From positions 434,001-498,000 of the forward strand of contig NZ_KE136482.1 of the NCBI RefSeq assembly GCF_000407185.1: DNA of 64,000 bases. Reading direction: 5' to 3'. Source of the DNA: Enterococcus malodoratus ATCC 43197 (GTDB taxonomy: Bacteria; Bacillota; Bacilli; Lactobacillales; Enterococcaceae). A program made the position numbers and the translations under genes. Shown here one piece after another: positions 14,515 through 32,719 of this stretch (positions are counted from its first letter, which is position 1; every line of letters starts with the position of its first letter). The notes under the pieces are model-generated. The model saw nothing but the letters and a program-made list of their open reading frames with translations. It did not search any database and had not been told where the DNA came from.

Positions 14515-15387
14515 TTACTCTTCCATCGTTAAAGAAGTAGCACTACGAATATCCGCAATCTTCGATGTTTTGATAATATGTTCCATGTTTTGTTCAAAGT
14601 TTTTAGCAAACAGCGCCGAATAAAGGATGTCTAATAAATGGACGACAGAAGTGTTAGTCGAATAATGACCAACCTTCGAATAAAGACGCTCCCGTGTTGC
14701 CATATATAAAATGGCGTCCGCATTTTGCGACAAAATATTTTCAGAAAAGCTGGTAATGGCAATGATCGGGATATTTCTAATCTTCAATACCTCAGTGACT
14801 TCCTGCATCTTTGAACTGCTTCCCGTATAAGAAATCAGCAAAGCGCAAGAATCTTGCGGCATATTTAAGACATCATAGATGTGCTCACCTTCAACGTTGC
14901 TGATGGTTACAGAGTACATTAAGCGTCTCATTTTAAATTGAAATTCCTCTGCCAGCAGAAGATTTACGCTGCTGGCAAATATCGTAAAGTGTTTTTGTTT
15001 ATTCAAATAGTCTACTGCTTTGGTCAACTCTTTGTAAGAGAGGAGCTCAACGATGTCATCAAAGGTATTCTTTTTTAATTCAGTGATCTTATTTGCGATA
15101 CTTAACGCTGAATCTTTTTGAGAAAAGGGAATATTTAAATCTACTTTTGAGATACTTCTCTCAAAGTAAGTAAGTTCTTTGATATAAGACAGCTTCAGAT
15201 CATTCCAGCCCATAAATCCCATCTTGTTTGCGACACGAATAAACGTTGACGGAGAAGAAAAACTTTCCTTAGCAGCCACTTTTATTGTCTTATCGGCTAA
15301 TTCATATTTTTGACTTTGCATGTAGTCTACCACTAATTGTTCAGCCCCGGTGAATTTAGTGGTTTTCATTAATTCTAAAATGGACAT
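14515..15387 (-). CDS. RpiR/MurR-family sugar-phosphate regulator
   Basis: Transcription factor with an N-terminal HTH (about 1-75; FSSPSTFIRVANKMGFMGWNDLK is the recognition region) and a C-terminal SIS domain that binds a phosphosugar (about 120-260, including FTIFASSVNLLLAEEF and ALLISYTGSSSKMQEV). The 290-residue length is typical. GGAGG precedes the ATG at 15387. It is divergent from the beta-glucoside PTS operon and very probably controls it, with a phosphorylated beta-glucoside as the likely effector. Most beta-glucoside operons use a BglG antiterminator instead; none is seen here. Confidence 0.9.
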   Translation of the reverse strand: MSILELMKTTKFTGAEQLVVDYMQSQKYELADKTIKVAAKESFSSPSTFIRVANKMGFMGWNDLKLSYIKELTYFERSISKVDLNIPFSQKDSALSIANKITELKKNTFDDIVELLSYKELTKAVDYLNKQKHFTIFASSVNLLLAEEFQFKMRRLMYSVTISNVEGEHIYDVLNMPQDSCALLISYTGSSSKMQEVTEVLKIRNIPIIAITSFSENILSQNADAILYMATRERLYSKVGHYSTNTSVVHLLDILYSALFAKNFEQNMEHIIKTSKIADIRSATSLTMEE

Positions 15388-15450
15388 GGATAGTGCCTCC
15401 TTTCGAAATTAGAATTTCATTTCAGAAAAAGTAAATGATTTCAACTAGAA

Positions 15451-15497
15451 ATGAAAACGGTTTTCCTAAATGATTAAACGCTGTTGGAAAACAGTTT
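15451..15497. promoter_or_regulatory. Operator candidates of the PTS operon
   Basis: AAACGGTTTTCC (15455-15466) and GGAAAACAGTTT (15486-15497) form an inverted repeat with one mismatch in 12; the second arm overlaps the -35 box. The first arm with its flank, TGAAAACGGTTTTCC, also resembles a CcpA cre site with one mismatch. Either the RpiR regulator, CcpA or both may bind. Confidence 0.5.
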
Positions 15498-15512
15498 AGA
15501 ATACACTATATT
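15484..15512 (+). promoter_or_regulatory. Promoter of the beta-glucoside operon
   Basis: TTGGAA, 17-nt spacer, TATATT, 74 nt before the PTS start codon. Confidence 0.6.
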
Positions 15513-15585
15513 TTACATTGTAAGACCAAGCAAAACAAGCTAGGTTAAGGCGCCTAACCTGCAGAAAGTATGGGGTGAAATAGAA

Positions 15586-18856
<3,271 letters not shown>

Positions 18857-18857
<1 letters not shown>

Positions 18858-19633
18858 TGGATGACTACTCTTTACTTTTACAGGTTGGACAAAATAAATT
18901 TACTTTCTTTCAGAAAACACCAATGAAGTTTTTCGTTAAATCCATTTTGGCAGGTATCTATTTAGGGGTGGCGATGAGTTTGTCACTTGCTTTGGGTGGG
19001 ATTATTGCTACGATAAATCCTAATCTAGCAAAGATCGCCTTCGCAATGTTCTTCGGGCTAACGTTCGTACTCATCATTTTTTTGAATGGGGAATTATTTA
19101 CGGGGAACTGTCTCACCACCATTTTTCCAATTTATAACAAAAAACAGTCTCTTTCATCTTTACTTAAAATGTGGGGAAATTGTTTACTGGGAAATGCAGT
19201 GGGAATCAGTATTTATAGTGTACTTTTCATCCGAAGTCGTGCACTGAGCACTATAATTATTCCATACCTTGCTAATTTAGTGGAAGCGAAACAACATTTC
19301 ACGTTAGAAAGCTTACTTATTAAGTCGATCCTATGCAATTTCATTGTATGTATCGCGACCTATGTAGCACTAAAAATCAAGGAAGATCTAGCCAAAACCT
19401 TTATTATGTTAGTAGTAATTATGACATTTGTGGTATGCGGTTTCGATCACTGTATTGCTAATATTGGACTTTTTCTGATGCAAGCAATGAGTGGTGGAAC
19501 AGCCCTAAGCGGCTCATTAGTATTTCAAAATATCCTTTTTTCAATTGTCGGAAATGTTCTTGGCGGATCAGTGATGATGGCAGCTCCATTATATTTTGTT
19601 CTTTGTCCGACAAACCTGAACATGAGAAGGTAA
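18857..19633 (+). CDS. Formate/nitrite (FNT) family channel
   Basis: Pentameric channel-type protein for small monocarboxylates such as formate, nitrite or lactate. The 258 residues show about six membrane segments and the family motif NGELFTGNCLTTIF (GxELFTGN). The start is the ATG at 18857, which shares a base with the stop of the glucosidase gene and so implies translational coupling. FNT proteins in beta-glucoside operons are uncommon; fermentation of the imported sugar yields formate or lactate that it could export, but this is inference. A strong terminator follows. Confidence 0.88.
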
Positions 19634-19682
19634 CTGATCCAACATATAATGATCATTCTGGATTTTCTAAACTCCACACTAA

Positions 19683-19725
19683 AACAGCCTCCCAACTCTT
19701 TTTAAGATTTGGGAGGCTGTTTTTC
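19683..19725. terminator. Operon terminator (works on either strand)
   Basis: AACAGCCTCCCAA / TTGGGAGGCTGTT perfect 13-bp stem followed by TTTTT, with an A-run before it. A second hairpin (AAGAGACT / AGTCTCTT, 19732-19755) follows. Confidence 0.88.
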
Positions 19726-19803
19726 ATAATTAAGAGACTTTTTAGTCAGTCTCTTCTTAAACTCCACTCTCTTTTAAATAACCAACAAGTAGGTTTCAAG
19801 CTA

Positions 19804-20685
19804 CTATTTTTCACCAATATTCTCGAGCCATGTTGTGGCAAATCGGTTGAAAATATCAGACGCTGCAGAAGAATAGACATCTGAGTTTTTAGCAATGACT
19901 AATGAACGATAATAGTGTTCACTAATTGGCCGAATAGCGACATTGACATGGTTAGGTATGCTATCGAGAAAAAATTTCGAAAAAATACTGATGCCAAATC
20001 CGGCTTCGATAAGTTTTAAAGCCACGAGTTCATCGAAAATTTCGAAGGTGTATTGTGGTTCTAAACCAAGGGAATGAATGAAACTACCAATTTCAAAATC
20101 AAATCTTTCTCCAGATAGGATATATGTTTCATCGACTATCCGATTGATGGAAATAGTAGGTTCGGTAACAAATGGATGATCGCAGGGCAACACGACGACA
20201 AACTCATCTTGTAAGAAAACTTCATAAGAAAACTCATCCATGCCATACATCGATGTGAAAGCAACATCAATTTCATTTCGGCTTAATTTTTCATAGATTT
20301 CTTGTTGATTTCCTGTAAAAATCTCAAATTTGATTTTTGGATATTTTGTCGTAAATTCTTTTAATATTTTGGGCAGGTAGGTCATTGCAAAGCTAATAAA
20401 GCTTCCGATGCGGACAGTCCCAATTTCTGATTGCGTCATAGCATCTGATAGCTGTTGTAATCGCAGGTTCTCTTGATGAATAATCTCAAGTGATTTTATA
20501 ACAGAACTTGCATTTGGTAAAAGCATCACACCAGAGTTCGTTCGTTTAAAAATTGGGAACCCCATCTCATTTTCAAAAGATTTAATGGTTTGACTAATCG
20601 CTGATTGGCTATAGTTTAAATTCTTTGCGGCCTGAGAAATATTACTTGTTTTTACAACCTCTAATATTACATCGTATTTATCCAC
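19804..20685 (-). CDS. LysR-family transcriptional regulator
   Basis: Likely activator of the catabolic operon on the far side of the IS1380 element. The 293-residue protein has an N-terminal winged HTH (about 1-60, SNISQAAKNLNYSQSAISQTIKSFE) and a substrate-binding domain (about 88-285). The start is a GTG at 20685. No ATG fits, and the ribosome binding site is poor because the start overlaps a 16-bp palindromic element that may be its own binding site; this suggests autoregulation. LysR regulators usually sit divergent from their target, and here the target operon starts 1.9 kb away because the IS lies between. Confidence 0.9.
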   Translation of the reverse strand: MDKYDVILEVVKTSNISQAAKNLNYSQSAISQTIKSFENEMGFPIFKRTNSGVMLLPNASSVIKSLEIIHQENLRLQQLSDAMTQSEIGTVRIGSFISFAMTYLPKILKEFTTKYPKIKFEIFTGNQQEIYEKLSRNEIDVAFTSMYGMDEFSYEVFLQDEFVVVLPCDHPFVTEPTISINRIVDETYILSGERFDFEIGSFIHSLGLEPQYTFEIFDELVALKLIEAGFGISIFSKFFLDSIPNHVNVAIRPISEHYYRSLVIAKNSDVYSSAASDIFNRFATTWLENIGEK

Positions 20686-20700
20686 CTGAATAATTCATAG
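20685..20700. promoter_or_regulatory. Palindromic element at the lysR start, copy 1
   Basis: CCTGAATAATTCATAG, built on the palindrome TGAAT-A-ATTCA. The same 16 bases occur in reverse orientation at 22343-22358, on the other side of the IS. This is a candidate LysR operator. The next 186 bases to the transposase gene are AT-rich and include the IS end. Confidence 0.5.
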
Positions 20701-20829
20701 ATCTAATTTTTTTGGGAAAATAACGTTTATACATCGATTTGAGTTGAATTTTCTTTTTTCAACCGGTTTGTACTTGCGAAAACAGATTTCCTTTTGTTTT
20801 TTTAACGAAGATAGGGAATCTGGAGCTGT

Positions 20830-22295
20830 TTTTGGGCGCACGAATCCCTTAGTGATTCCATGTCTTTTTAAAAGCTGATTGCTATTTTACACTTGCCAAC
20901 TGAGTTGCTGGATTTTGTCCAGTAACTGATAAAACAAGTCTTGATAGACATGGGAGGAGCTCATCCGTAAAAGCAATCTACGGCCACTGCGGACTAATTT
21001 ACCCGCGACCTTGAACAGGCGGAGCCGCAATGTGTCGACTTGGAATGTCGCTTCCTTTTCAGGTAGACATATGGTCTTCATGAAGTTGACCAGGTTGTAA
21101 GCCAACAGGCTTACCATCATCCGTGCATGATTTTCCAAGAAGCTTGAGCTATCCGTCTTGTCGAAATAGAACCCATTTTTTGCTTCCTTGATGAAGTTCT
21201 CCATGGTGCCGCGTTTATGGTAAATCTGGAAGATGGTTTTCGCGGATAGTTCCTCGTGAAAATTAGTGACCACGTACTCGTGACTGAACACCAGCTGATT
21301 CGATTCCCGAGTCGATTTGATACAGATTCGACGTTTTTGGGACCAGCTATTGGCTTGATAGAACGCGGAATAGTAGTGGACTTCCCTTTCCTCCCAGGGA
21401 TGGTCGTCCCCAACCAGGACAAAGGTTTCCGCTAGTTTTTCCACGACTTTATTTGATTTCAGGCGGATGACATAGAAACTTTCGTTGGATTCACACGTAT
21501 CATAGACCTCGGGCGTCGCAAAGCCGCTGTCTCCCCGGACCAAAATATCAGTGCAGGGAAGGACTTGACGGTAATGTGTGAGCATCGGTGCCAGAAAATC
21601 TTTTACACCTTTTGACGTATACACATTTCCAGAACGAAGTTCTGCTTTCAGAAAGTCTCCCGTAAGGCCATCGAAGGCTACCAACGGATGATAGCCCTGT
21701 GTGCCGTAATGGGCATTGTGCTCAGTCTTTTCTTGATTCCCGAACGTATCCGAATGTGTGGAATCTAAATCGATGATCATTTGGGTATTGTTCCGTTCCA
21801 TGCGGACCTTGTCCAGCATGGCTTGGTTCAGTTCCTGGAACTGTGCAATGTTCTCCTCGCTGATCCGGTCCCAGAAGCGGGATAGCGAGGCCTGGGAGGC
21901 GATGGCTTCCTTATCCAAAACCAACCGAAAAATGGGATCTTCCTTCAAGAGATTGGCGGATGAATCTGCGGAATATCCGGCAATCAACTGGAAGAGCAGC
22001 TGTTCGAGCAGGGAGATGTTGTCATGAGTCCAATAAATACGGTCCTCATTGAAGTGGAGGAATTGCTTCGCGAACGAATAAAATCCAAGCGAATTCATGA
22101 ATTCCTTCACCAAGATGAGACCGGCATCTGACGAAAGATTACCACCGGTGTTTGACACCACCATTTTAGAGTTGAATTTTACGTGTTTTTCCTGTAATGT
22201 AGCCATTGAGAGAACCCCTTTCTTGGTTTAGTTTAGACACTTTAACCATAGCAGATTGGGGTTCTTTTTGTACACCCAAAGGGTGCGGTAAAAGA
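20830..22295 (-). mobile_element. IS1380-family insertion sequence (ends approximate)
   Basis: A single-transposase element. Exact ends could not be fixed. Small palindromes lie outside the gene on each side (GAATC ... GATTC at about 20843-20860, CACCC ... GGGTG at about 22275-22287), each with a nearby CGCAC, and may mark the subterminal regions. The element separates lysR from the operon it probably regulates. Confidence 0.6.
20887..22206 (-). CDS. IS1380-family transposase
   Basis: DDE (transposase DDE_Tnp_1-like) enzyme of 439 residues, the usual IS1380 length. Typical features are the start KHVKFNSKMVVSNTGGNLSSDAGLILVKEF, the IDLDSTHSDTFGNQ catalytic Asp region, LVRGDSGFATPEVYD with the second Asp, and YHKRGTMENFIKEAKNGF with the Glu. 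AAGGGG precedes the ATG. GC content is visibly higher than in its neighbours, in keeping with recent arrival. It appears intact. Confidence 0.93.
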   Translation of the reverse strand: MATLQEKHVKFNSKMVVSNTGGNLSSDAGLILVKEFMNSLGFYSFAKQFLHFNEDRIYWTHDNISLLEQLLFQLIAGYSADSSANLLKEDPIFRLVLDKEAIASQASLSRFWDRISEENIAQFQELNQAMLDKVRMERNNTQMIIDLDSTHSDTFGNQEKTEHNAHYGTQGYHPLVAFDGLTGDFLKAELRSGNVYTSKGVKDFLAPMLTHYRQVLPCTDILVRGDSGFATPEVYDTCESNESFYVIRLKSNKVVEKLAETFVLVGDDHPWEEREVHYYSAFYQANSWSQKRRICIKSTRESNQLVFSHEYVVTNFHEELSAKTIFQIYHKRGTMENFIKEAKNGFYFDKTDSSSFLENHARMMVSLLAYNLVNFMKTICLPEKEATFQVDTLRLRLFKVAGKLVRSGRRLLLRMSSSHVYQDLFYQLLDKIQQLSWQV

Positions 22296-22342
22296 AAAGA
22301 AGAACCGTGCGTTAATAAGCTTTTAATAGAGTTTCAGAAATT

Positions 22343-22358
22343 CTATGAATTATTCAGG
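22343..22358. promoter_or_regulatory. Palindromic element upstream of the catabolic operon, copy 2
   Basis: CTATGAATTATTCAGG, the inverted copy of the element at the lysR start. The rest of 22296-22623 is non-coding leader. It contains the related phrases GGTATTAGGAACCTGA (about 22438) and GGTATTAAGAAAACTGA (about 22519), which may be further regulatory sites. No clear promoter was settled on. Confidence 0.5.
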
Positions 22359-22623
22359 ATCCATACTGACCTCCTAAGAGTATATGTACTGCGAACCTAG
22401 AAATTATCAGCTTTTTCTAATGCAATGTCAAGCGCTGGTATTAGGAACCTGAATACCCGATAACAAAAGGTCTTATAACGCCATCACTAATTGTGAACAA
22501 AAGCACAGGTTGACTTGGTATTAAGAAAACTGATAGCGGGCAACACTTTTTGTTGGTTTATTTACGACAAGCCCATCGTTACAATAATCTCGTAAATAAC
22601 TCAAATGTTGAAGGGATGATATC

Positions 22624-23598
22624 GTGAAGACAATCAATGAAAAGCAGGTCAAAACATTTTTAAGTATGGGAAATGTGATTGAGGTTGTGAAGAAATTATA
22701 TTTTGAATGTACAGAAGGCCAAATACGTGCTGGTAATAGAATATATATGCCTATACGCGGTGAAGAAAATGTAGGGCAATGGTTAGTCGCTAATTCACTT
22801 AGTCAACCATTTTTTGGTTCAAAATTTTCTTCTGTATTTCCCAAAAATGTGGCTATTGGACTTCCAAGTACCATTTCAAAAATCAGCCTCTACTCAGCAG
22901 AAACAGGAGAACTGCAGGCTTTGATCGATGCGAATTATTTAACGGCGATTAAAACAGGCGCAAGTGCTGCTGTTGCGACAGATTTAATGGCTAGAAAAAA
23001 CGCGTCTGTTTTATCCATCATCGGTACAGGGTTGCAGGCATATTCTCAAGTACTTGCTATTCAAGAGGTTAGAAAATTAGAAAAAGTCTATGTTTATGAC
23101 GTTGTGCCCGAACGGATCGATGAATTCATCTCAATGATTGAAAAAGAAAAAAATCAGGACTATTCGATTGTCGCTGCTGCATCAGGGGATGAATGTGCAG
23201 AACAAGCAGATATTATTTGTACGTGTACGACAGCAAAATCTCCAGTTTTTTCAGGTGAGAAGCTTAAGCCCGGGACACATGTAAATGCGATTGGTTCTTT
23301 TACTCCTTTCATGCAGGAAATCGATGAAAACACCGTTCTTAAAGCATCGAAGATTTTAACTGAGCATGTAGAGGGTTTGTGGGAAGCCGCTGGCGATATT
23401 TTGATTCCGTTCAATGAAGGGAGGATTACTAAAGAGGATGTAACTGGAGAACTCGGTGACGCATTGACTGAAAAAGTATCTGCCAGAGACAACGATCAAG
23501 AAATCACCTTGTATGAAAGTGTAGGTTCAGGTGTTTTGGATATTGGTTTGTCGATCTATGTGTACCAAAGTCTTTATAAAGAGGAAAAGGGTAAATGA
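22624..23598 (+). CDS. Ornithine cyclodeaminase/mu-crystallin family reductase
   Basis: NAD(P)-dependent enzyme of the OCD family, which includes ornithine cyclodeaminases and Delta1-pyrroline-2-carboxylate reductases. The 324-residue protein has the conserved TAIKTGASAAVATDLMAR segment (about 107-124) and the Rossmann motif IIGTGLQA (132-139). The start is a GTG at 22624 with AAGGGA upstream. It is first in a four-gene operon and overlaps the MFS gene by four bases (ATGA). Beside a proline-racemase-family enzyme, reduction of pyrroline-2-carboxylate to L-proline is the most economical role. Ornithine cyclodeamination or alanine dehydrogenase activity are alternatives within the family. Confidence 0.85.
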   Translation: MKTINEKQVKTFLSMGNVIEVVKKLYFECTEGQIRAGNRIYMPIRGEENVGQWLVANSLSQPFFGSKFSSVFPKNVAIGLPSTISKISLYSAETGELQALIDANYLTAIKTGASAAVATDLMARKNASVLSIIGTGLQAYSQVLAIQEVRKLEKVYVYDVVPERIDEFISMIEKEKNQDYSIVAAASGDECAEQADIICTCTTAKSPVFSGEKLKPGTHVNAIGSFTPFMQEIDENTVLKASKILTEHVEGLWEAAGDILIPFNEGRITKEDVTGELGDALTEKVSARDNDQEITLYESVGSGVLDIGLSIYVYQSLYKEEKGK

Positions 23599-24968
23599 TG
23601 ATGGAAATGAAAACGAGTTATAAGGATTCATCGTTAAAGACGATTCATAAAAAAGTATTTCTTTGTATGCTTTTAGGACAAATGGCTTGTTCCTATGCAT
23701 TAGGGATTGCAGGGACAGCATTAACACAAGCTTCCGAACCGTTAGGACTGAACAGTTTTTGGATGGGATTAATAGGTGCCGGGACATTGATTGGTTTAAT
23801 GGGGAGCATTGTGGTTGGTAATCTGGCCGATCGCATGGGTAGACGAATCCTTTTCAATATAGACATGATCCTGTTCACAGTTATTTCCTTAGTTCAATTT
23901 TTCGTAGTCGGTCCAATCAGCTTATTTATTTTAAGAATTGCTTTGGGGTTAATGATCGCGATCGATTATACAGTAGGTAGTGCCTTGTTGACCGAATGGC
24001 TGCCAGATAAATGGGCGGATAAATTTCAAAGTTATCTGATCATATTCTGGAGTATCGGCTTTGTTGCATCCTATTTTGTTGGAAGCGCCATGGTTAATCT
24101 AGGGAATGGTGCGTGGAAATGGATTTTTATGTCGTCTGCGCTGCTTAGTGTCGTGGCGGCGATTGTTAGAATTGTTCTCAATATTCCAGAGTCTCCAGAA
24201 TGGTTAACGACTGTTGGCAAAAAGGATGAGGCTTTACGTTTAGTACACGCTCAGCTGGGTTCGGACTATAGTTTACCGATAGTTGAGCAAGGAGAGTCTG
24301 AGAAAGTTAGTTGGTCAGAGTTGTTTAATGAACACAATCGAATAAATACTCTAGTTGGCGGTATTTTCTACGGCTGCCAAGTATTTCCATATTTTGGCGT
24401 AAGCATCTTTATTCCCATATTGGTCAAAAACATGAACATGGGAAATAGCGGTACGTCTGGTACGATCTACAATATTTTTGTTGTAGTTGGTGCAATCGTC
24501 GGTGTTATTCTTTTTGATCGAATCTCAAGGAAAGCCTTTTTAATGACAACTTTTTACGTACCGGCTATTGCGGTTATTGGGATGATTCTTTTGCAAAAGG
24601 CACCGCTCGTGATTACGATTGTTTTATTTTCTATCTTTGCGCTCGGCATGGCTGCTTCCGTTGTTGCTGAGAATCCTTATCCGCCTGAATTGTTTTCAGC
24701 AAGACTGAGAGCTTCAGGTGTGGGTGCCGTGATTGCGATAAGTCGTATTGGTGCTGCCCTCGGAACATTTCTTTTACCGATAATTGTTGATCGTTTTAGT
24801 GCATATACTGCTCTAGGTGTTTGTGCGGCTGTTCTAATAGTCGGCGGTGTCTTTTGTCAATTGTATGCCCCTGAAACGTCTAATAAATTTAAGCGGAAGG
24901 AGGAGAAATTCGATGCCCCATATTGCGATCCAAATGTATCCAGGACGGGATCAAAAAACGAAAGATAA
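23595..24968 (+). CDS. MFS transporter (sugar/acid porter type)
   Basis: Twelve-helix major facilitator of 457 residues. Between helices 2 and 3 is GNLADRMGRR, the family loop motif, and a second copy (FDRISRK) follows helix 8. ENPYPPELFSARLRASGVG near the C-terminus resembles sugar/aromatic-acid/metabolite porters. Several adjacent Met codons are possible starts; the first overlaps the stop of the preceding gene. Its 3' end overlaps the tautomerase gene by 56 bases. It probably imports the operon's substrate, which I take to be a hydroxyproline or related imino acid. Confidence 0.88.
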   Translation: MMMEMKTSYKDSSLKTIHKKVFLCMLLGQMACSYALGIAGTALTQASEPLGLNSFWMGLIGAGTLIGLMGSIVVGNLADRMGRRILFNIDMILFTVISLVQFFVVGPISLFILRIALGLMIAIDYTVGSALLTEWLPDKWADKFQSYLIIFWSIGFVASYFVGSAMVNLGNGAWKWIFMSSALLSVVAAIVRIVLNIPESPEWLTTVGKKDEALRLVHAQLGSDYSLPIVEQGESEKVSWSELFNEHNRINTLVGGIFYGCQVFPYFGVSIFIPILVKNMNMGNSGTSGTIYNIFVVVGAIVGVILFDRISRKAFLMTTFYVPAIAVIGMILLQKAPLVITIVLFSIFALGMAASVVAENPYPPELFSARLRASGVGAVIAISRIGAALGTFLLPIIVDRFSAYTALGVCAAVLIVGGVFCQLYAPETSNKFKRKEEKFDAPYCDPNVSRTGSKNER

Positions 24969-25125
24969 AATTGCTAAAAGAATGCAGGCTGTTCTTGCTG
25001 AAGAAATGCAAGCAGACAAAAAATATTTTTCCGTTTCCATTCAAGACGTTGAAGCAGATGACTGGAAGGATAGTGTTGAAGACAAAATTGAATCTGAAAA
25101 CCTATTTATTTCAGCCGAATTTTAG
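24913..25125 (+). CDS. 4-oxalocrotonate tautomerase-family protein
   Basis: A 70-residue protein beginning MPHIAIQMYPGRDQKTKDK. After removal of Met, Pro1 is the catalytic base of this family, which shifts keto-enol or imine-enamine double bonds. The start is fixed by AAGGAGGAG upstream and by the need for Pro at position 2; a longer frame into the MFS gene would destroy this. In this operon a fitting reaction is conversion of Delta2-pyrroline-2-carboxylate, the enamine formed by hydroxyproline dehydration, to the Delta1 imine that the OCD-type reductase uses. That is inference. Confidence 0.85.
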   Translation: MPHIAIQMYPGRDQKTKDKIAKRMQAVLAEEMQADKKYFSVSIQDVEADDWKDSVEDKIESENLFISAEF

Positions 25126-25160
25126 TAATAAAAAATACAATTAAAGAGGAGCAAGTAATT

Positions 25161-26225
25161 ATGGCATTTAAACGAATGATCAATTGTGTAGAGACTCATG
25201 ACGGCGAGCCTATGCGTGTTGTAACTGGAGGCGTAGGACATATTCCAGGTGACAGTGTGTACGAAATGATGGAAAACCTAAGAAAAACAGATGATGGCTT
25301 ACGCAAATTTCTTCTTAGAGAACCTCGAGGATATCCGCCTCTTTGTTGCAATATTGTTGTGCCGCCAAAGCATCCTGATGCGGCAGCTGGTTTCATTATC
25401 ATGGAACAAGTAGAGTATCCCATGATGTCTGGAGGCAACACAATCTCTGTGGCTACTGCTTTATTAGAAACGGGGATTATCCCGATGCAAGAACCATACA
25501 CTGAGTTTAATTTAGAAGCTCCAGCTGGATTGATTGGGATCAAGGCGAAATGTGAAAATGGCAAAGCTACAGAAGTGACCTTTAAAAATGTTCCTGCTTT
25601 TGCTGCTTACACAGATACTGTCATTGATGTGCCTCACATTGGACATGGCGTTGAAAAAGTCACCGTCGATGTCGCTTGGGGAGGGATGTTCTATGCTATG
25701 GCAGATGTTCGTCAATTCCCTTGGGTAGAATTAGAGCCTGATCAAGGTCGTGAGATCACACGTATTTCGTCATTGATTTTAAAAGCGGCACAAGAGCAAT
25801 TACCTGTCGTTCATCCAGATTATCCTGGAGTAGGGATTACTATTTCTCAATTGTTCGGCCCAACGGATGATCCAAATGCAGATGTCAAAAATGCGGTAAC
25901 CGTAGCCAGCGGTGAGGTCGATTTTGATAACCCGTCTACCTGGATCGGAGCGCTCGATCGCTGCCCTTGTGGAACAGGTACCTGTGCTCGTATGGCTGCG
26001 ATGTATGCTAAAGGTGAACTAAAACTAAATGAACCTTTCCTACATCAAGGACTTTTAGGTGTTGTCTATAAGGGAGAATTAGTTGAAGAGACAACGATTG
26101 GGGACTATAAAGCAATTGTCCCAACAATCACTGGCTGTTCATGGATATATGGCTTCAATAATCTGGTTTTAGATCCGACTGATCCATTTACAGAAGGATT
26201 TACAATTGGAGATATTTGGGCTTAA
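25161..26225 (+). CDS. Proline racemase-superfamily enzyme (predicted hydroxyproline dehydratase/epimerase)
   Basis: A 354-residue protein with the superfamily fold signature. The first catalytic position is Ser90 in PMMSGGNT, where proline racemase has Cys in MCGHG. The second is Cys270 in DRCPCGTGTCA. The Ser/Cys pairing occurs in a subgroup linked to hydroxyproline metabolism rather than to true proline racemases, as I recall the family. AGAGGAG precedes the ATG. Together with an OCD-type reductase, a tautomerase and a transporter, trans-3-hydroxy-L-proline dehydratase is my best reading; 4-hydroxyproline epimerase is the main alternative. Last gene of the operon; 26226-26384 after it is non-coding. 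Confidence 0.85.
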   Translation: MAFKRMINCVETHDGEPMRVVTGGVGHIPGDSVYEMMENLRKTDDGLRKFLLREPRGYPPLCCNIVVPPKHPDAAAGFIIMEQVEYPMMSGGNTISVATALLETGIIPMQEPYTEFNLEAPAGLIGIKAKCENGKATEVTFKNVPAFAAYTDTVIDVPHIGHGVEKVTVDVAWGGMFYAMADVRQFPWVELEPDQGREITRISSLILKAAQEQLPVVHPDYPGVGITISQLFGPTDDPNADVKNAVTVASGEVDFDNPSTWIGALDRCPCGTGTCARMAAMYAKGELKLNEPFLHQGLLGVVYKGELVEETTIGDYKAIVPTITGCSWIYGFNNLVLDPTDPFTEGFTIGDIWA

Positions 26226-26384
26226 TAATATAGTAACAAGAAACAGCTTTAGATTATTTAGTTAAAACGTAGAAGAAGACCTCAGAAGCTTTTTGAGTGT
26301 GAAGTAAAGCCCAATAGTTAGACTGCATTTTCACTTTGTCATTCGTTCTCGATACTTAGGAAGCCCCCTTCAATGGGAAATTTA

Positions 26385-26425
26385 AAAAGGAGCCAAGAAA
26401 TCATTGCGATTTCTTGGCTCCTTTT
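26385..26425. terminator. Bidirectional terminator
   Basis: A 17-bp perfect stem starting AAAAGGAGCCAAG, loop CATTGCG, ending in CTTTT. It serves both the catabolic operon and the convergent recombinase gene, whose stop codon lies two bases on. Confidence 0.9.
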
Positions 26426-26426
26426 A

Positions 26427-27536
26427 TCACGTCCACAAATCATTCATCGCATCGCGTTTCTTCTTACCAGCGATATGCGTATAAACGGTCGTTGCTGAGG
26501 TTCCGGACTGGCCGAGCTGCTCGGCGACTTGCACGAGAGAGTTGGTTTTGCTATATAATTGGGTCGCGACTGAGTGGCGCAGTTTGTGCGGCGAGATCTT
26601 GATTTTGAAGGCCTCTGAATATTTTCCAACCATGGCTTCGACGGCGCCGTTGGCGATGCGCTTGGCCTTGCCGCGATAGCGGGTGAGGAAGAGGGCCGAT
26701 TCATTTTCGTCTGGCTGGTAAAGCTGATTTCGCTGTTCCAGATAGACGTTTAGATATTCGATCGCGATCGAAGAAATCACCACCATATCCCATTTTCCGC
26801 CTTTACGATACACCCGTGCTTCACCAGTGTTCAAGTCGAGGTCCTGCACGTTCATATTGACCAGCTCAGACAGCCGCATTCCCGTTCCGAGAAAAAGCCC
26901 GATAATCGCGAGATCTCGTACTTGATTGTTCTTAAATGCGGTAATTGCCTGGCGCGTTTCCAAGGTATCGATGTAGCGCTTTTCAATAAAATCAAGAAAA
27001 TCCAAGGCTTCCTCGTCTAAGAATAATTTCTTCTCAATAGCCGCCCCGCGTTCAGCCATCGTTTTATTATCCTTGACATTTGCGACTTTTCCCATCATAT
27101 TGTGTTCAAGATAAGGCTTGCCTGTCTTGCGATCAATCGCTTCACTCAGATAACTGAAGAGCGAGCGTAAAGCAGTAACCCCGCGTTGAACGGTCGCATT
27201 TTGTCGTAAGGGGAGAGCTTGTTCACTTTCTTCTAGGCGTTTCTTGGTTGATTCTTTTAAAATTTTCGGTGCTTTGACAAGATGCGCTTTGTAAAATTCC
27301 AGATCTTCTGGCCACAAAGCAGCGAATTCAGCCAAAGTAATTTCAGCTAATTGGTCAGCCGAAGAAAAGCCTTCTTGAATCAACCAATTCAAAAAGCGCC
27401 GATATTCCTTGGCGTATTCATATAAGGTGATGGAAGAGTACTGATCACCGCTTTTTTTACGAAAATAATTTTGGACGAACCAGGGAAAAAACTGGATTTC
27501 TTCCTCCATTCGCCGATTGGCTTCTTGCTGATTCAT
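26427..27536 (-). CDS. XerS-type tyrosine recombinase, copy 1
   Basis: Single-subunit chromosome-dimer-type recombinase related to XerS of streptococci and lactococci. The 369-residue protein has a core-binding N-terminal half (YSSITLYEYAKEYRRFLNWL at about 35-54) and a catalytic domain with GTGMRLSELVNM (Arg), SPHKLRHSVATQLY (HxxR) and TTVYTHIAGK (Tyr). The start is the ATG at 27536 with AAAGGAG upstream. It shares the overall plan and the C-terminal DLWT with a second copy at 47266-48408. It has its own strong promoter. A dif-like target was looked for nearby without success. Confidence 0.85.
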   Translation of the reverse strand: MNQQEANRRMEEEIQFFPWFVQNYFRKKSGDQYSSITLYEYAKEYRRFLNWLIQEGFSSADQLAEITLAEFAALWPEDLEFYKAHLVKAPKILKESTKKRLEESEQALPLRQNATVQRGVTALRSLFSYLSEAIDRKTGKPYLEHNMMGKVANVKDNKTMAERGAAIEKKLFLDEEALDFLDFIEKRYIDTLETRQAITAFKNNQVRDLAIIGLFLGTGMRLSELVNMNVQDLDLNTGEARVYRKGGKWDMVVISSIAIEYLNVYLEQRNQLYQPDENESALFLTRYRGKAKRIANGAVEAMVGKYSEAFKIKISPHKLRHSVATQLYSKTNSLVQVAEQLGQSGTSATTVYTHIAGKKKRDAMNDLWT

Positions 27537-27561
27537 TCTGGCCAACTCCTTTATAACTAAA

Positions 27562-27590
27562 AGTATATGACAGAGGCTAAATCTTGTCAA
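27562..27590 (-). promoter_or_regulatory. Promoter of recombinase copy 1
   Basis: Minus strand TTGACA, 17-nt spacer, TATACT. A palindrome GGTTATTATACC lies just upstream at 27609-27620. Confidence 0.7.
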
Positions 27591-27750
27591 ACGACAGTTA
27601 TTTTATAAGGTATAATAACCTGTGAAATGATTATTGTTATCATAAATTGGTTATTTAATAATTAATGGTATAAAAAAATAGTTGTTCATTTTCCGCAAGA
27701 AAGCCGATTCGCAAAAAGATATACTAGGGGTAATAAAGGGGGAGTAACTC

Positions 27751-28830
27751 ATGATTACTTCAAAGAAAAAACAAGTAGAATACTATCATGCCTTAAAGGA
27801 AAAGGATCGTCATTACGATGGGCTCTTTTTTGCCGGAATCAAGACGACAGGAATTTTCTGTCATCCGACTTGCCGTGCTAGAAAACCAAAATTTGAAAAC
27901 TGTGAATTTTACTCAACAGCGGAAGAAGCGTTGTTGGCGGGATATCGCCCATGCAAGATCTGTCAGCCGTTGTCTTTTCCGCAAGCAATTCCTGAAGAGG
28001 TGCAGCAACTAGTCAACGCGGTGGAAGAACAGCCGGAAAAACGTTGGAAAGAAGCAGATTTCTCAGCCATCGGTTTGAATTCCGCTACAGCCCGCAGAAG
28101 ATTCAAAGAGGTCTACAATATGACTTTTGTTCAGTATGCACGAGCACGCCGAATGGGGTTGGCTTTTAAAGAAATCAGTCACGGCAGTAAAGTAATTGAT
28201 CAGCAGCTTGAAACGGGCTATGAATCCTCCAGCGGATTTAATGATGCCTTTACCAAAATCATGGGCAATCCGGCGAAAAAGCTGGATGCTCGAACATTAA
28301 ATGCGTCATTTATCTCAACACCGATCGGTCGGATGCTCTGTTTGAGTGACGATGAGTACTTGTACTTATTGGAGTTTGAAGATCGGCGCGGCTTAGAACG
28401 AGAAGTCGAGCAATTACGGACAAAGTATAACTTCCGCATCATCTATGGACGAACGGTTATTAATCAGCAGGTGGAAGAACAACTAAGCGAGTATTTCAGA
28501 GGCGAGCGGACCGAATTTTCATTGCCGTTGTTTTATGACGGTTCGTCGTTCCAAAAAGAAGTCTGGAAAATTCTAGAAACGATCCCCAGTGGTGAAACGT
28601 TGAGTTACCGAGACATCGCTCTTCAATTAGGGGATAAAAATAAAGTTCGCGCGGTGGGACGGGCCAATGGGTTAAACAAACTGGCGATCGTCGTACCATG
28701 TCATCGAGTAATCGGAAGCGATGGGAATTTGACCGGCTATGCCGGCGGATTGGAACGAAAGCAGTATCTGCTGGAGCTGGAGAAGAAGGCGGGAAAAATA
28801 AAAGAAACAGCTAAAAAGCGAGGCGAGTAA
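27751..28830 (+). CDS. ada: Ada-type DNA repair protein and regulator
   Basis: Adaptive-response protein that repairs alkylated DNA. Three domains are visible in 359 residues. First is the Ada zinc/methyl-acceptor domain (about 8-80) with Cys37, Cys41, Cys68 and Cys71. Next is an AraC-type HTH (about 85-185, LNSATARRRFKEVYNM and DQQLETGYESSSGFNDAF). Last is an O6-methylguanine methyltransferase domain with acceptor Cys317 in VVPCHRVIG. The length matches the classical fused Ada. GGGGGAG precedes the ATG. Its own expression is probably raised by the methylated protein; no Ada box was identified. The 3' end forms half of a terminator shared with the convergent gene. Confidence 0.93.
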   Translation: MITSKKKQVEYYHALKEKDRHYDGLFFAGIKTTGIFCHPTCRARKPKFENCEFYSTAEEALLAGYRPCKICQPLSFPQAIPEEVQQLVNAVEEQPEKRWKEADFSAIGLNSATARRRFKEVYNMTFVQYARARRMGLAFKEISHGSKVIDQQLETGYESSSGFNDAFTKIMGNPAKKLDARTLNASFISTPIGRMLCLSDDEYLYLLEFEDRRGLEREVEQLRTKYNFRIIYGRTVINQQVEEQLSEYFRGERTEFSLPLFYDGSSFQKEVWKILETIPSGETLSYRDIALQLGDKNKVRAVGRANGLNKLAIVVPCHRVIGSDGNLTGYAGGLERKQYLLELEKKAGKIKETAKKRGE

Positions 28831-28850
28831 CATTGGTTCGCTTTTTAGCT
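28809..28850. terminator. Inverted repeat joining two convergent gene ends
   Basis: AGCTAAAAAGCGA / TCGCTTTTTAGCT, a perfect 13-bp stem. One arm is in ada and the other in the last codons of the convergent membrane protein gene. Confidence 0.6.
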
Positions 28851-29171
28851 GAAACGAAATATGACCATCACAAACAACAAGAATAGAAAAAACATCACGG
28901 CTAATAAACAATAAATCTTCTTTTTGAGAGTAAGGAATTCAGCCGTTTCCGCAGTGTTCATCCGACTAACAGTCTTTCGCCGTGTAAAGAGATAGAGGAG
29001 CAGGCCGCCGCCGTTTTGTCCGCCGGAAGCTACAATAGACCAAAACTTAGGATTTTTGATTCCACGACTTTTGGCGTCTATCATAACAAGAGAGTAAATA
29101 AAGTACCACATACATCCCGCCGCTAGTACCAGTAAGACCATCAAAAGAATCACTATCATTGTTTGACTCAT
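28845..29171 (-). CDS. Small membrane protein paired with an XRE regulator
   Basis: A 108-residue protein with a hydrophobic N-terminal segment (about 5-33, MIVILLMVLLVLAAGCMWYFIY), a short cytoplasmic-looking stretch with SRGIKNPKFWSIVASGGQNGGGLLLYLFTRRK, and a C-terminal hydrophobic helix (about 85-106). AGGAG precedes the ATG. It starts 12 bases after the XRE gene, so they form one unit. The family is not recognised; it may be the membrane partner or target of the regulator. Confidence 0.7.
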   Translation of the reverse strand: MSQTMIVILLMVLLVLAAGCMWYFIYSLVMIDAKSRGIKNPKFWSIVASGGQNGGGLLLYLFTRRKTVSRMNTAETAEFLTLKKKIYCLLAVMFFLFLLFVMVIFRFS

Positions 29172-29183
29172 AAAAATCAGCTC

Positions 29184-29582
29184 CTAAATTTTTTTAATAA
29201 TCAGATAAAAAAGCGAGAGAGTATTGGCCCCAATCAAGGAGAAGATAATGATAATAAAAGGCTCACTCATCGTTCGATTAAACAAAAGCACAACCATTAA
29301 GAACACATTGATAAAAAGCATCGTAATAAAAATCTTCAAAAAATGATTGACGACTGTGTTTTCCTGCAAATGCTTGACCATCTCTCGATCTCCTTTCAAC
29401 AACTCATCCAGCGATAAGTCGTAAATTTCTGATAAGCGAATGATTCGTTCGATATCTGGGTAGCTTCTGCCATTTTCCCAGTTCGACATCGTCTGGCGGG
29501 TGATACCCAATTTCTCCGCCACATAATCTTGCTTCAGATGCAATTCATTTCTTCGTTGTTTCAATCGTTGTCCAACATCCAT
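29184..29582 (-). CDS. XRE-family regulator with membrane anchor
   Basis: A 132-residue protein with a clear lambda-repressor-like HTH (about 5-60; LKQDYVAEKLGITRQTMSNWENGRSYP) followed by two hydrophobic segments (about 78-100 and 108-130). Such HTH-plus-membrane proteins are common small regulators in Firmicutes and sometimes respond to membrane or peptide signals. GAGGGA precedes the ATG. It is followed by a second membrane protein gene in the same unit. Confidence 0.88.
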   Translation of the reverse strand: MDVGQRLKQRRNELHLKQDYVAEKLGITRQTMSNWENGRSYPDIERIIRLSEIYDLSLDELLKGDREMVKHLQENTVVNHFLKIFITMLFINVFLMVVLLFNRTMSEPFIIIIFSLIGANTLSLFYLIIKKI

Positions 29583-29779
29583 TTTTAATCCCTCGTTTAT
29601 CTATCTTTCTTATAGCATAAAACAATCTGCGTAGAACTACGAGAAAAAATAGGGAAAAAACCTTTTACATACCGCTATTAAAGGTTTAATCAAACAGGGA
29701 AGGGGAGGATGAAGGGGGAGATTACGAACTAAAAATATCGCAAAGAAAATATTTACAAATATCTTTTCCTAAAAACCGT

Positions 29780-29808
29780 TTGACAATTAGCTAAAAGCGG
29801 GGTATATT
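29780..29808 (+). promoter_or_regulatory. tetR promoter
   Basis: TTGACA, exactly 17-nt spacer, TATATT, 38 nt before the start codon. Confidence 0.75.
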
Positions 29809-29816
29809 CTAAATAG

Positions 29817-29829
29817 ATACCAGTGGTAT
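29817..29829. promoter_or_regulatory. TetR operator, site 1
   Basis: ATACCAGTGGTAT, a perfect palindrome with one central base, directly downstream of the -10 box. A related site lies before the MFS gene. Confidence 0.65.
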
Positions 29830-29845
29830 GTAAGGAGCTGACGCT

Positions 29846-30490
29846 ATGGCTAGAGGGAAAAATCCTGAGGAAACAAGGCAAAAAATCCTCTCTGTATCGA
29901 AAAAGTTATTTCTTGAAAAGGGCTACGACAACACTTCGATTCAAGATATCGTGAACGGCTTAGATGGAATGACCAAAGGTGCGATCTATCAGCATTTCAA
30001 ATCGAAATTTGAGATTTTTGAAACGATTATTGAACCAGCAGAATCGGCGGAGGAAAGTTTGCGCAAGCACCAGGGGAATACTGGACTAGAAAAGCTGCAA
30101 AGCGCGATTTTAGATGCTTTTACCGACTATTCACGGATGAGATTGAACTATTCAGCGGCGGTTACGCTGCGAAGCCCGCGTTTTATCGGAGAGCAGTTCA
30201 TTGATATGTTTAGTGAAGTGATTCCTGAGATCAAAAAGATCGTGGAAGAGGGCGTCAAGGACGGATCGATCGAGACGGAATATCCGGAAGAGGTAGCGGA
30301 TGTCTTGATGATGAACCTGAACACTTGGATTGGACTGCATCTGACCGTTTTTACAGAAGAACAGTTAAAACGCAAGATTGACTTTACTAAGAAGATTTTT
30401 GACAGCATGGGAATTCCGATCTTCAATGAGGAGATCATGACAGAAGCGTATAAGATGTTTGAGTATATTAAAAAAGATAGCAGTGAATGA
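29846..30490 (+). CDS. TetR/AcrR-family repressor
   Basis: A 214-residue regulator with the N-terminal HTH (about 8-55; YDNTSIQDIVNGLDGMTKGAIYQHFKSK) and a helical ligand-binding domain. TAAGGAG precedes the ATG. The palindrome between its -10 box and start suggests autorepression, and a variant of the same site before the next gene suggests joint control of the efflux pump. The ligand is unknown, probably a compound exported by the neighbouring MFS protein. Confidence 0.92.
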   Translation: MARGKNPEETRQKILSVSKKLFLEKGYDNTSIQDIVNGLDGMTKGAIYQHFKSKFEIFETIIEPAESAEESLRKHQGNTGLEKLQSAILDAFTDYSRMRLNYSAAVTLRSPRFIGEQFIDMFSEVIPEIKKIVEEGVKDGSIETEYPEEVADVLMMNLNTWIGLHLTVFTEEQLKRKIDFTKKIFDSMGIPIFNEEIMTEAYKMFEYIKKDSSE

Positions 30491-30512
30491 GCTATTTTTT
30501 TTAAACATATAG

Positions 30513-30529
30513 ATACCAACGGTAGGTAT
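30513..30529. promoter_or_regulatory. TetR operator, site 2
   Basis: ATACCAACGGTAGGTAT, with outer ATACC/GGTAT arms, in the context TAGATACC as at site 1, between tetR and the MFS gene. Confidence 0.55.
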
Positions 30530-30582
30530 GTTAATGAGTATTATTGATCGTCACTGAAGGAGTAGGAAAGCAGGGTTTAACT

Positions 30583-31821
30583 ATGAGAAAAAATAAAAAT
30601 TTTAATTTATTAATCGGAAGTCAATTATTTTCAGTTTTAGGAACCACGATCGTTCAATTCGTGATCTCCTTGTATGTCTTGGATATCACCAAATCAGCCT
30701 TCACATTTAGTGTGATTGCTTCATTATCAGTTGTGGGACGTTTGATTTGTCTGCCGTTCTGCGGTGTGCTGGCCGATCGTCTGCCAAAAAGAAACTTGAT
30801 GCTGTTCATGGATTGCCTTTATCTAGTCTTGTCAGTGGGGCTCTTCTTAGTCACTCGTTTAGCGAATCCTGTTACGGCCATCGGAATTCTGACCGTAATC
30901 ATCGGAATGGTCTCAGCCTTTGAAACGCCAGTCGTTCAATCAGCAATCCCAGTGATTTGTACTGACGAGGAAATTCCGAGAGCGAACGGCATCATCAGTT
31001 CTATTGGAACATTAGGTACCGTTTTAGGTCCAATTATTGCAGGCATCATCTATCGTTTCGACGCCGTTTATCAGATCTTTGTGATCACCGGCGTCTTGTT
31101 CTTAATTGCTATTTTTTGTGAAGTGCTGCTAACTATTCCGACGCAATCACAAGCGGTGACAGAAGGCTCGCTTTTCCAAGTCGTAGCGGGTGATTTGAAA
31201 GAAGTCACGCAATATTTGAAGGCGCAAAAGGTGATTGTCAAAGTCGCTATGGTGGCGTTCTTATTGAACTTTTTCTTAGCATCTTTCATTCAAGTGATCA
31301 TCCCTTACGTTTCACGCATTCAACTAGGGGTGAGCGACGCCCAATTTGGGTTAATGAATACTATTTTGGCGATCGGCAGCTTGTTAGGAACCGTGGTGTA
31401 TGGTGTGATCGCCAATCGTTTGAATGAAACAAGTATTACTAAAAATCTGATTTTAGTTGCTATCCTGTTTGGTTTATTGGTGATCCCGTTTGGTCTGATT
31501 CAAAACGCGGCTTTGGCCTTTTGGGTTATGACAATCATCGTTGCCTGTGCAATGGGCGTTGTTACAGTAGTTTCAGTCCAACTAATCGTCTACATTCAAT
31601 TGGTTTCAGACAAAGCACTGCTTGGCCGGATCATGTCTTTGGTTATGATCGTAACAACTTTAGCGGTACCGTTAGGACAGGTAATGTACGGCGGTTTCGC
31701 GGCTGTAGCCTCAGAAGCAATGCTGCTGATATTGATTGCCGGAACTTCACTTGTGACAGTTCTGATCGCATTCTTTTCAATCAAAATATTTAAACAAATG
31801 AGGGTCGAAAACGAATTATAA
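30583..31821 (+). CDS. MFS efflux transporter
   Basis: Twelve-helix exporter of about 412 residues, starting MRKNKNFNLLIGSQLFSVLGTTIVQFVISLYV, a pattern close to the MefA/MFS_3 type of drug and macrolide exporters. GVLADRLPKRN is the loop 2-3 motif. The ATG at 30583 is preferred (CAGGG upstream); an earlier TTG would add 13 residues. It is controlled by the upstream TetR gene. The substrate cannot be inferred, and it is not close enough to named resistance pumps to call resistance. Confidence 0.85.
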   Translation: MRKNKNFNLLIGSQLFSVLGTTIVQFVISLYVLDITKSAFTFSVIASLSVVGRLICLPFCGVLADRLPKRNLMLFMDCLYLVLSVGLFLVTRLANPVTAIGILTVIIGMVSAFETPVVQSAIPVICTDEEIPRANGIISSIGTLGTVLGPIIAGIIYRFDAVYQIFVITGVLFLIAIFCEVLLTIPTQSQAVTEGSLFQVVAGDLKEVTQYLKAQKVIVKVAMVAFLLNFFLASFIQVIIPYVSRIQLGVSDAQFGLMNTILAIGSLLGTVVYGVIANRLNETSITKNLILVAILFGLLVIPFGLIQNAALAFWVMTIIVACAMGVVTVVSVQLIVYIQLVSDKALLGRIMSLVMIVTTLAVPLGQVMYGGFAAVASEAMLLILIAGTSLVTVLIAFFSIKIFKQMRVENEL

Positions 31822-31963
31822 TATTAAAAATCATATTTATAATATTTTGTCAAACCCAAATATTTTATTTTTTGTAAAATTATCGTTAAGACAAATAATT
31901 ATTCCCACTTACTTTTCTTGATATAATAAAAATGGATGTATTAAGTTCTAAGGAGGGATTATA

Positions 31964-32719
31964 GTGAGCTTTTTCAGCTATAAGGGAAAGAACGTCTTTT
32001 ACGAAACAATTGGAGAAGGAAAACCACTCGTTTTTTTGCACGGAAATACCTCGTCATCAAAATTGTTTATGCCCATTTTACCCCTTTATAATGACTTTCA
32101 AGTGATTTTGATTGATTTTTTAGGCTATGGTCAATCTGATCGCTTGGATAAATTCCCTACAGAACTATGGAAAGATGAAGCACGTCAAACAGTTGCATTA
32201 TTAGAGCACTTAAACATCAGAGAAGCAAACCTAGTTGGTACCAGCGGCGGCGCCTGGGTCGCGATCAACGCAGCATTTCTTAGACCGGATCTGATTGCAA
32301 CCGTTACCGCGGACAGTTTTGACGGTCGGACGTTTCACGAGGGCTTTGATGAAACCTTATTGGCAAAATCTTGTTCAAACCAAACCGATTTCGAGACTTC
32401 GCAATATTATCATTGGTGTATCGGTGACGATTGGGAAGAAGTTGTTGAACAGGATACAGACTCCATGTGGCGGCTGATCATTTCTAGAAGAGAACTATTT
32501 TTCGACTCACTGCAAATTTTACAGGCACCATTACTTTTAACTGCGACTAAAAAAGATGAAACCATTCGCCCCAATATCGAAAGAGAATACCGCGCGATCG
32601 CAGGAGAAGTCGTTAATGGTCAATTTAAGATATTTGATAATCCCGGACATCCCGCAATAGGAACCAGCGCGGAAGAGGTTGCCGAAACAATCAATCAATT
32701 CATTACCGAATTCAATTGA
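31964..32719 (+). CDS. Alpha/beta hydrolase, tandem copy 1
   Basis: A 251-residue serine hydrolase. The oxyanion segment is FLHGNTSSSKLF, the nucleophile Ser is in VGTSGGAW (GxSxG), and the terminal His is in NPGHPAIGTSAEEV. The GTG at 31964 is the start, preceded by AAGGAGG. A paralog follows after about 110 bases; the two share most motifs almost word for word (WCIGDDW, TADSFDGRT). The substrate is unknown; the fold is also used by lactonases and peptidases. Confidence 0.88.
   Translation: MSFFSYKGKNVFYETIGEGKPLVFLHGNTSSSKLFMPILPLYNDFQVILIDFLGYGQSDRLDKFPTELWKDEARQTVALLEHLNIREANLVGTSGGAWVAINAAFLRPDLIATVTADSFDGRTFHEGFDETLLAKSCSNQTDFETSQYYHWCIGDDWEEVVEQDTDSMWRLIISRRELFFDSLQILQAPLLLTATKKDETIRPNIEREYRAIAGEVVNGQFKIFDNPGHPAIGTSAEEVAETINQFITEFN

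Follow-up and report, generated by a model that had tools for sequence, protein, structure and literature searches.

A locus in which a small tautomerase lies between a possible enamine-forming enzyme and an imine reductase raises the question of whether the step from enamine to imine may be catalyzed in the cell. Such a locus occupies positions 22624 to 26225 on the plus strand of the window, by which we mean the whole 64,000-nucleotide stretch of contig NZ_KE136482.1 analyzed here, from the 4.6 Mb genome of Enterococcus malodoratus ATCC 43197. Its four genes encode, in order, an OCD-family reductase, an MFS transporter, a 4-OT/PptA-like tautomerase and a proline-racemase-superfamily (PRS) enzyme. 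The initial annotation read them as a trans-3-hydroxyproline operon with a tautomerase of its own. The analysis presented here partly supports that reading: the role given to the tautomerase has become stronger than first thought, while dehydration and the identity of the substrate are inferred and have the catalytic pair of the PRS enzyme against them. In the form that we favor, with a nearly even chance of being right, the locus would be a LysR-controlled operon for salvage of 3-hydroxylated proline, in which dehydration by the PRS enzyme and tautomerization by the small protein would be followed by OCD-catalyzed reduction to L-proline.

The overlapping or close spacing described for the four genes is borne out by their coordinates and Pfam matches. 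The OCD/mu-crystallin-family protein, a predicted Delta1-pyrroline-2-carboxylate (imine) reductase (22624–23598; OCD_Mu_crystall, 203 bits), begins with a GTG codon and overlaps by 4 nt the gene of the MFS transporter (23595–24968; MFS_1, 133 bits), which is predicted to take up the substrate. The 70-residue tautomerase (24913–25125; Tautomerase, 29.1 bits, cut-off 22) starts with an ATG at 24913 that is preceded by AAGGAGGAG, its stop codon ends at 25125, and the PRS gene follows at 25161–26225 (Pro_racemase PF05544, 340 bits, cut-off 27). A stretch of 56 nt of the tautomerase gene lies inside the MFS frame, and in Enterococcus sp. 665A the MFS frame stops ahead of the tautomerase gene; the window lacks that stop between 24882 and 24968. 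Translational coupling and neutral extension are both possible explanations of the longer frame.

The four-gene order was also found elsewhere, in Enterococcus sp. 665A (L041), where it again stands next to a LysR gene, divergent and directly upstream. The proteins of the two genomes are 88% (LysR), 88% (OCD), 88% (MFS), 76% (tautomerase) and 96% (PRS) identical, with dN/dS values of 0.060, 0.044, 0.058, 0.150 and 0.018, respectively, at dS of 1.0 to 1.5. All five genes are thus kept under purifying selection, the tautomerase least strictly, and recurrence at low dN/dS indicates that the arrangement is more than chance. Alignment of the DNA with the 12.9 kb 665A locus gives two stretches of similarity, which take in only the LysR gene, the operon and the region upstream of the operon, so the unit sits in different surroundings in the two genomes; it was probably acquired horizontally. 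The sole other such locus in the sample of 36 described below belongs to a member of the Eubacteriaceae (L053) and has the order LysR|OCD-PRS, with a LysR protein in the same place that is 55% identical to that of the window. Judged by sequence and position, the divergent LysR gene is the fifth part of the operon.

The tautomerase has the proline at position 2 that was noted initially (codon 24916–24918), which is the first residue after removal of Met, and an arginine at residue 12 (codon 24946–24948); Pro2, His3, Gly11 and Arg12 are invariant in eight aligned sequences. An AlphaFold model built from three sequences gives a strand-helix-strand-helix arrangement at a pLDDT of 78.4, and the match to the NCBIfam PptA equivalog, at 36.5 bits, does not reach the cut-off of 83. 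Among 105 Enterococcaceae genomes from 17 genera, a profile search detected 15 tautomerase places, in 14 genomes of a single genus. Each of the 15 follows an OCD gene of the same strand: 13 have it as their immediate neighbor, and in the window and 665A the MFS gene intervenes. This count is to be read with the caution that the eight sequences of the profile included members of both operon kinds. The 13 places hold a second, different pair, with a reductase (OCD2) 35–40% identical to the window OCD and a tautomerase 31–34% identical to that of the window in the five compared. The next gene in seven of the 13, within 1.5 kb, encodes a fused Fe-S L-serine-ammonia-lyase-like protein. E. malodoratus itself carries a second OCD-tautomerase operon with the lyase-like gene (L112:4838-7686, contig C1 about 1403837-1406685); at 217 and 135 bits against cut-offs of 243 and 161, this protein is a divergent relative of the lyases. 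L-serine dehydratases release 2-aminoacrylate. That compound is an enamine that turns to the imine before hydrolysis, according to the available text of PMC4433059. Both operons thus hold a possible enamine maker, a tautomerase and a likely imine reductase.

An independent case was encountered in Fuscibacter oryzae, where a 4-OT-type gene (L057:7307-7510, minus strand), the sole PF01361 match of the genome, follows a Ser/Thr PRS gene at a distance of about 45 bases and is convergent with an MSGGN-type PRS gene. Its product is 19% identical to the window tautomerase and unrelated to it. Altogether, tautomerase genes occur in three of the 36 PRS loci, namely L041, L057 (behind the second PRS gene) and L047, where a relative with 39% identity lies 1.3 kb behind the PRS gene, past a CoA-transferase gene. 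By a rough post hoc estimate, 0.2 such cases would be expected by chance in 66 PRS loci, where 3 were observed, one locus being counted twice.

The reductase is consistent with an imine substrate. Its nearest solved structure by sequence is the Delta1-pyrroline-2-carboxylate reductase 6t3e (E 7.1e-51), followed by the archaeal alanine dehydrogenase 1omo (E 2.3e-42), so that both the family and the closest named structure are those of Delta1-pyrroline-2-carboxylate reductases of the OCD superfamily. The NCBIfam models score below their cut-offs (PRK08618, the best, 291/417; PRK06141 228/322; NF045512 117/400), as do all subfamily matches of the MFS protein. The PRS gene stands beside an OCD gene, the context (an OCD or MLD2 reductase) associated with the dehydratases, and the published logic for such neighbors is the trans-3-hydroxyproline pathway, as given in the available text of PMC4113996.

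The PRS enzyme has Ser90 in the motif MMSGGN (codon 25428–25430) and Cys270 in DRCPCGTG (codon 25968–25970), confirming the pair first noted, together with Asp266 and with Gly92 at the position of the His or Ser of other members; its AlphaFold model has a pLDDT of 88.8. Wherever the alignments reach the catalytic sites, every PRS match of at least 56% identity carries MSGGN at the first and Cys at the second. A tree was built from 45 PRS rows, leaving out L068 and L074, whose PRS genes are split in two, and L075, which a contig end truncates; in it the MSGGN members form one group of 37 (support 100/98), separate from Ser/Thr, other Ser/Cys and Cys/Cys members. This subfamily is spread over Firmicutes, Alphaproteobacteria, one actinobacterium, one spirochaete and one synergistete. 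A same-order scan of 395 genomes met an MSGGN enzyme in two only, the source genome and one at 57% identity, and broad searches found it in one of 295 and one of 78 genomes, each the center genome itself (E up to 1e-110). Since these searches were nearly empty, the 36 loci, which come from a scan that detects close relatives only, are the main sample of the subfamily. A third PRS gene of E. malodoratus, with a Cys/Ser pair (PMCGHG, DRSPSGSG), was observed at L111:8152-9186 on the minus strand.

A marker search of these loci, up to 6 kb either side of the PRS gene, revealed varied neighborhoods. RidA, of the enamine/imine deaminase family, occurs in nine of the 36 (seven at 83–87% PRS identity, two at 59%), AcnX, of the cis-3-hydroxyproline dehydratase family, in five (83–87%, one with the small subunit only), a 2-oxoacid oxidoreductase in six, an amidohydrolase related to Xaa-Pro dipeptidase in six, and Ldh_2 in seven, which are Rhizobium relatives with 68–70% PRS identity. 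An ADP-forming CoA ligase (7/36) and a CoA-transferase III (4/36) are never found together, and OCD is confined to three loci (L041, L053, L064). A betaine-type transporter of the BCCT family was counted in 13 loci, an MttB-type methyltransferase in seven, and an enolase close to the hydroxyproline-betaine epimerase 4e8g/2pmq in three, leaving out a weak 27% match in L064. The clostridial loci fit dehydration to an enamine, hydrolysis by RidA and then oxidation to an acyl-CoA; the Rhizobium loci fit dehydration followed by Ldh_2 reduction; the window, with its OCD gene, fits dehydration followed by reduction; and the Rhodobacterales loci fit epimerization.

Two of these neighborhoods are of interest in their own right. 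The loci L042–L052 and L074, from clostridia, a spirochaete and a synergistete, hold BCCT, AcnX, RidA and 2-oxoacid:ferredoxin oxidoreductase genes with either a CoA ligase or a CoA-transferase, and look like pathways that ferment hydroxyproline-type compounds to an acid, 4-aminobutyrate for instance, of which we know no example in print. In six Rhodobacterales loci (L059, L062, L063, L065, L068 and L073), a 4-hydroxyproline operon is joined with a P5C-reductase-like gene; five of them have an MttB-family methyltransferase and three the enolase close to 4e8g/2pmq.

In the salvage reading, the MFS protein would import a 3-hydroxylated proline, most simply trans-3-hydroxy-L-proline, although this choice is a guess because the Ser/Cys pair is that of epimerases and the MSGGN subfamily is a separate one found in varied operons. 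Ser90 would take the C2 proton and the 3-hydroxyl would be expelled, giving the enamine Delta2-pyrroline-2-carboxylate, a step that the presence of Cys270 makes less certain. The N-terminal proline and the arginine of the tautomerase would then move a proton to give the Delta1 imine, which the OCD protein would reduce with NAD(P)H to L-proline. The genome has D-proline reductase genes (PrdA, 964 bits, cut-off 700), and the proline formed by the operon could therefore pass on to this reductase and be used as an electron acceptor. A D-proline reductase cluster, PrdA with relatives, lies at L110:4504-9928 together with a Cys/Cys proline-racemase-type gene.

Several observations on the PRS enzyme weigh against this reading. 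The second catalytic site holds Cys270 in place of the Thr of dehydratases, and the NCBIfam dehydratase models stay below cut-off (NF047722 303/550, NF045511 222/540). The epimerase models do likewise (NF010578 226/376, NF052296 132/450, NF010577 95/442), and the pair is not the Cys/Cys of proline racemases. In the sections of PMC4113996 that we draw on, the trans-3-hydroxyproline dehydratase B9K4G4 has Ser/Thr and an earlier dehydratase has its second Cys replaced by Thr, and Ser/Cys is the pair of the 4-hydroxyproline 2-epimerase B9JQV3 of cluster 9, a cluster whose proteins epimerize 3-hydroxyproline too. We therefore rejected Ser/Cys as a mark of dehydratases. Of the trans-3-hydroxyproline operon proposed at the outset, the analysis supports an imino-acid operon of the (hydroxy)proline type whose last step is taken by an OCD-type imine reductase. 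From its primer, we guess that RSP3519 of the same paper is a different PRS type.

These points suggest an alternative in which the PRS enzyme acts as a 2-epimerase of hydroxyproline or as a proline racemase, with Ser/Cys as its two-base pair (Cys/Cys is the other pair that fits such epimerases), and in which the OCD protein and tautomerase serve the same amino-acid salvage at a different imine or keto acid. Its relatives lend this some weight: DHDPS, ALDH and DAAO genes accompany the PRS gene in six of the 36 loci, all Rhodobacterales, in epimerase-type operons of the order GntR-DHDPS-ALDH-ProC-DAAO-PRS (L078 likewise, without ProC), and a Peteryoungia plasmid also has an MSGGN PRS in a DHDPS-ALDH-DAAO operon. 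The Rhodobacterales operons weaken the proposition that all MSGGN enzymes are trans-3-hydroxyproline dehydratases. However, DHDPS, ALDH and DAAO were found neither among eight scanned neighboring proteins, nor by marker search of the window from 15001 to 32000, nor within up to 6 kb of the PRS genes of L042–L053 and L074, and RidA, present in many of the latter loci, is a sign that an enamine or imine is formed there. Alphaproteobacterial members also make up a branch of their own in the tree, distinguished at numerous conserved positions such as Glu16. Moreover, the pair itself is no sure guide: among the best 30 of 70 Rhodobacteraceae match places, taken with about 1.5 kb each side (two shorter at contig ends), 29 have Ser/Thr and one, L104 (1501–2520), carries Ser/Cys despite 71% identity to the Fuscibacter Ser/Thr enzyme, so the pair can change within a close group. 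Ser/Cys by itself appears neither to prove nor to disprove dehydration, and we do not claim membership of the dehydratase family. On balance, we consider an epimerase or racemase unlikely. An N-methylated substrate, such as N-methyl-hydroxyproline or proline betaine for the MSGGN subfamily, is more improbable still, even though Gly92 would leave room for N-methyl groups where solved relatives contact the prolyl nitrogen with His, or with Ser in Ser-type enzymes (PMC4113996, Figure 5 legend, followed here because the text labels two Agrobacterium structures differently). The BCCT, methyltransferase and enolase counts given above are consistent with such substrates, but BCCT and methyltransferase genes are both absent from the window operon, the Rhizobium loci examined adjoin hydroxyproline-type genes, and a quaternary nitrogen is unable to give a neutral imine for the OCD protein, so only a mono-N-methyl substrate fits.

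The remaining doubts concern the tautomerase, which could be a passenger or a keto-enol tautomerase of the phenylpyruvate type with no part in the imine step. Promiscuity is common among tautomerases, and phenylpyruvate is a known substrate of E. coli PptA. The gene is the least constrained of the operon, and marker search shows that L053 has neither MFS nor tautomerase in its operon, so the helper is not obligatory. It is also rare elsewhere. A 111-genome sample of the phylum yielded 23 OCD places, spread over 17 genomes, and a tautomerase is nearby only at the two of E. malodoratus and at none of the other 21, which led us to reject a widespread OCD-tautomerase linkage; only one of the best 30 of 70 Rhodobacteraceae loci has a tautomerase near PRS, the Fuscibacter locus that prompted the search; and relatives of the Fuscibacter protein, at 13 places in 12 of 295 Rhodobacteraceae genomes, share a contig with a PRS place within 1 Mb only at its own place (comparison by eye). 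A further point is that PMC4113996, in its accessible text, describes the tautomerization of the trans-3-hydroxyproline route as nonenzymatic, in agreement with the initial view that it is normally spontaneous, and this leaves the benefit of a tautomerase unproven. Nevertheless, a passenger seems rather unlikely given the constant neighborhood of OCD genes in two different operons of Enterococcaceae, the independent Fuscibacter case and the excess over the rough chance estimate. The dedicated tautomerase proposed initially is accordingly tied to this operon and to OCD genes, though not obligatory, and uncommon in other lineages.

If the salvage reading is correct, the tautomerase would be a partner of OCD-type reductases in this genus, since the related pair accompanies the serine-ammonia-lyase-like gene, whose expected product 2-aminoacrylate would need the same tautomerization before reduction. 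More speculatively, yet with some chance of being right, a general module may exist in one Enterococcus genus, in which a dehydratase, a dedicated tautomerase and an OCD reductase convert a β-hydroxy amino acid to its deoxy form with no ammonia or free keto acid released, taking 3-hydroxyproline to proline with the PRS enzyme and serine or a relative to alanine with the Fe-S lyase-like protein.

The initial annotation missed the LysR gene (19804–20685, minus strand; Pfam HTH_1 and LysR_substrate) and the insertion sequence between it and the operon. This IS1380-family element (20685–22358, minus strand; NCBIfam transpos_IS1380, 395 bits, cut-off 180) has 17-nt perfect terminal inverted repeats, a target duplication ATCCA and a transposase gene at 20887–22206. 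By comparison of its flanks with the 665A locus, it is inserted at the LysR start codon, where it cuts the frame, and it parts the gene from a promoter-like site facing it (22431–22403, minus strand; TTGACA-17-GATAAT, 11/12). The site is a consensus match only, and weak, because the promoter scan gave seven sites in the region, fewer than the average of 10.7 for shuffled sequence. Regulation of the operon in this isolate may be altered by the insertion.

The presence of a tautomerase beside imine reductases in two operons makes cellular catalysis of the enamine-imine step directly testable. Among the open-licence papers listed, none showed an enzyme for this tautomerization by title or abstract start, and we know of none that has it as its biological job; if the proposal is true, small tautomerases would be, as far as we know, the first, and PptA-like tautomerases would gain a biological role. 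The MSGGN subfamily presents a related problem, in that catalytic pair and gene neighborhoods point to different reactions.

Among known systems, the tautomerase is closest to the PptA/YdcE branch of the 4-OT family (1gyj), which it resembles in its length of about 70 residues, N-terminal proline, MPH start and, as modeled, a strand-helix-strand order. It differs from that branch in its linkage to OCD reductases and in its arginine, which takes position 11 once Met is removed, just as it does in 4-OT, and it is 24% identical to E. coli PptA. The closest pathway is that for trans-3-hydroxy-L-proline (clusters 5 and 12 in the available text of PMC4113996), where a PRS gene beside OCD is likewise predicted to lead through dehydration, tautomerization and reduction to proline; the window differs in its Ser/Cys pair in place of one with Thr, its own MSGGN subfamily and a tautomerase in the operon for a step described there as nonenzymatic. 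B9JQV3 (same source) shares the Ser and Cys, an Asn three residues past the Ser and an Asp for the amine, whereas the window enzyme has MSGG rather than MSGS, and the window has no oxidase, DHDPS or ALDH gene for the epimerase route. RidA, a small family found at loci of the same PRS subfamily, also acts on enamine and imine intermediates, but it clears them by hydrolyzing the imine to a keto acid (PMC4433059, available text), whereas the proposed tautomerase would feed the imine to a reductase.

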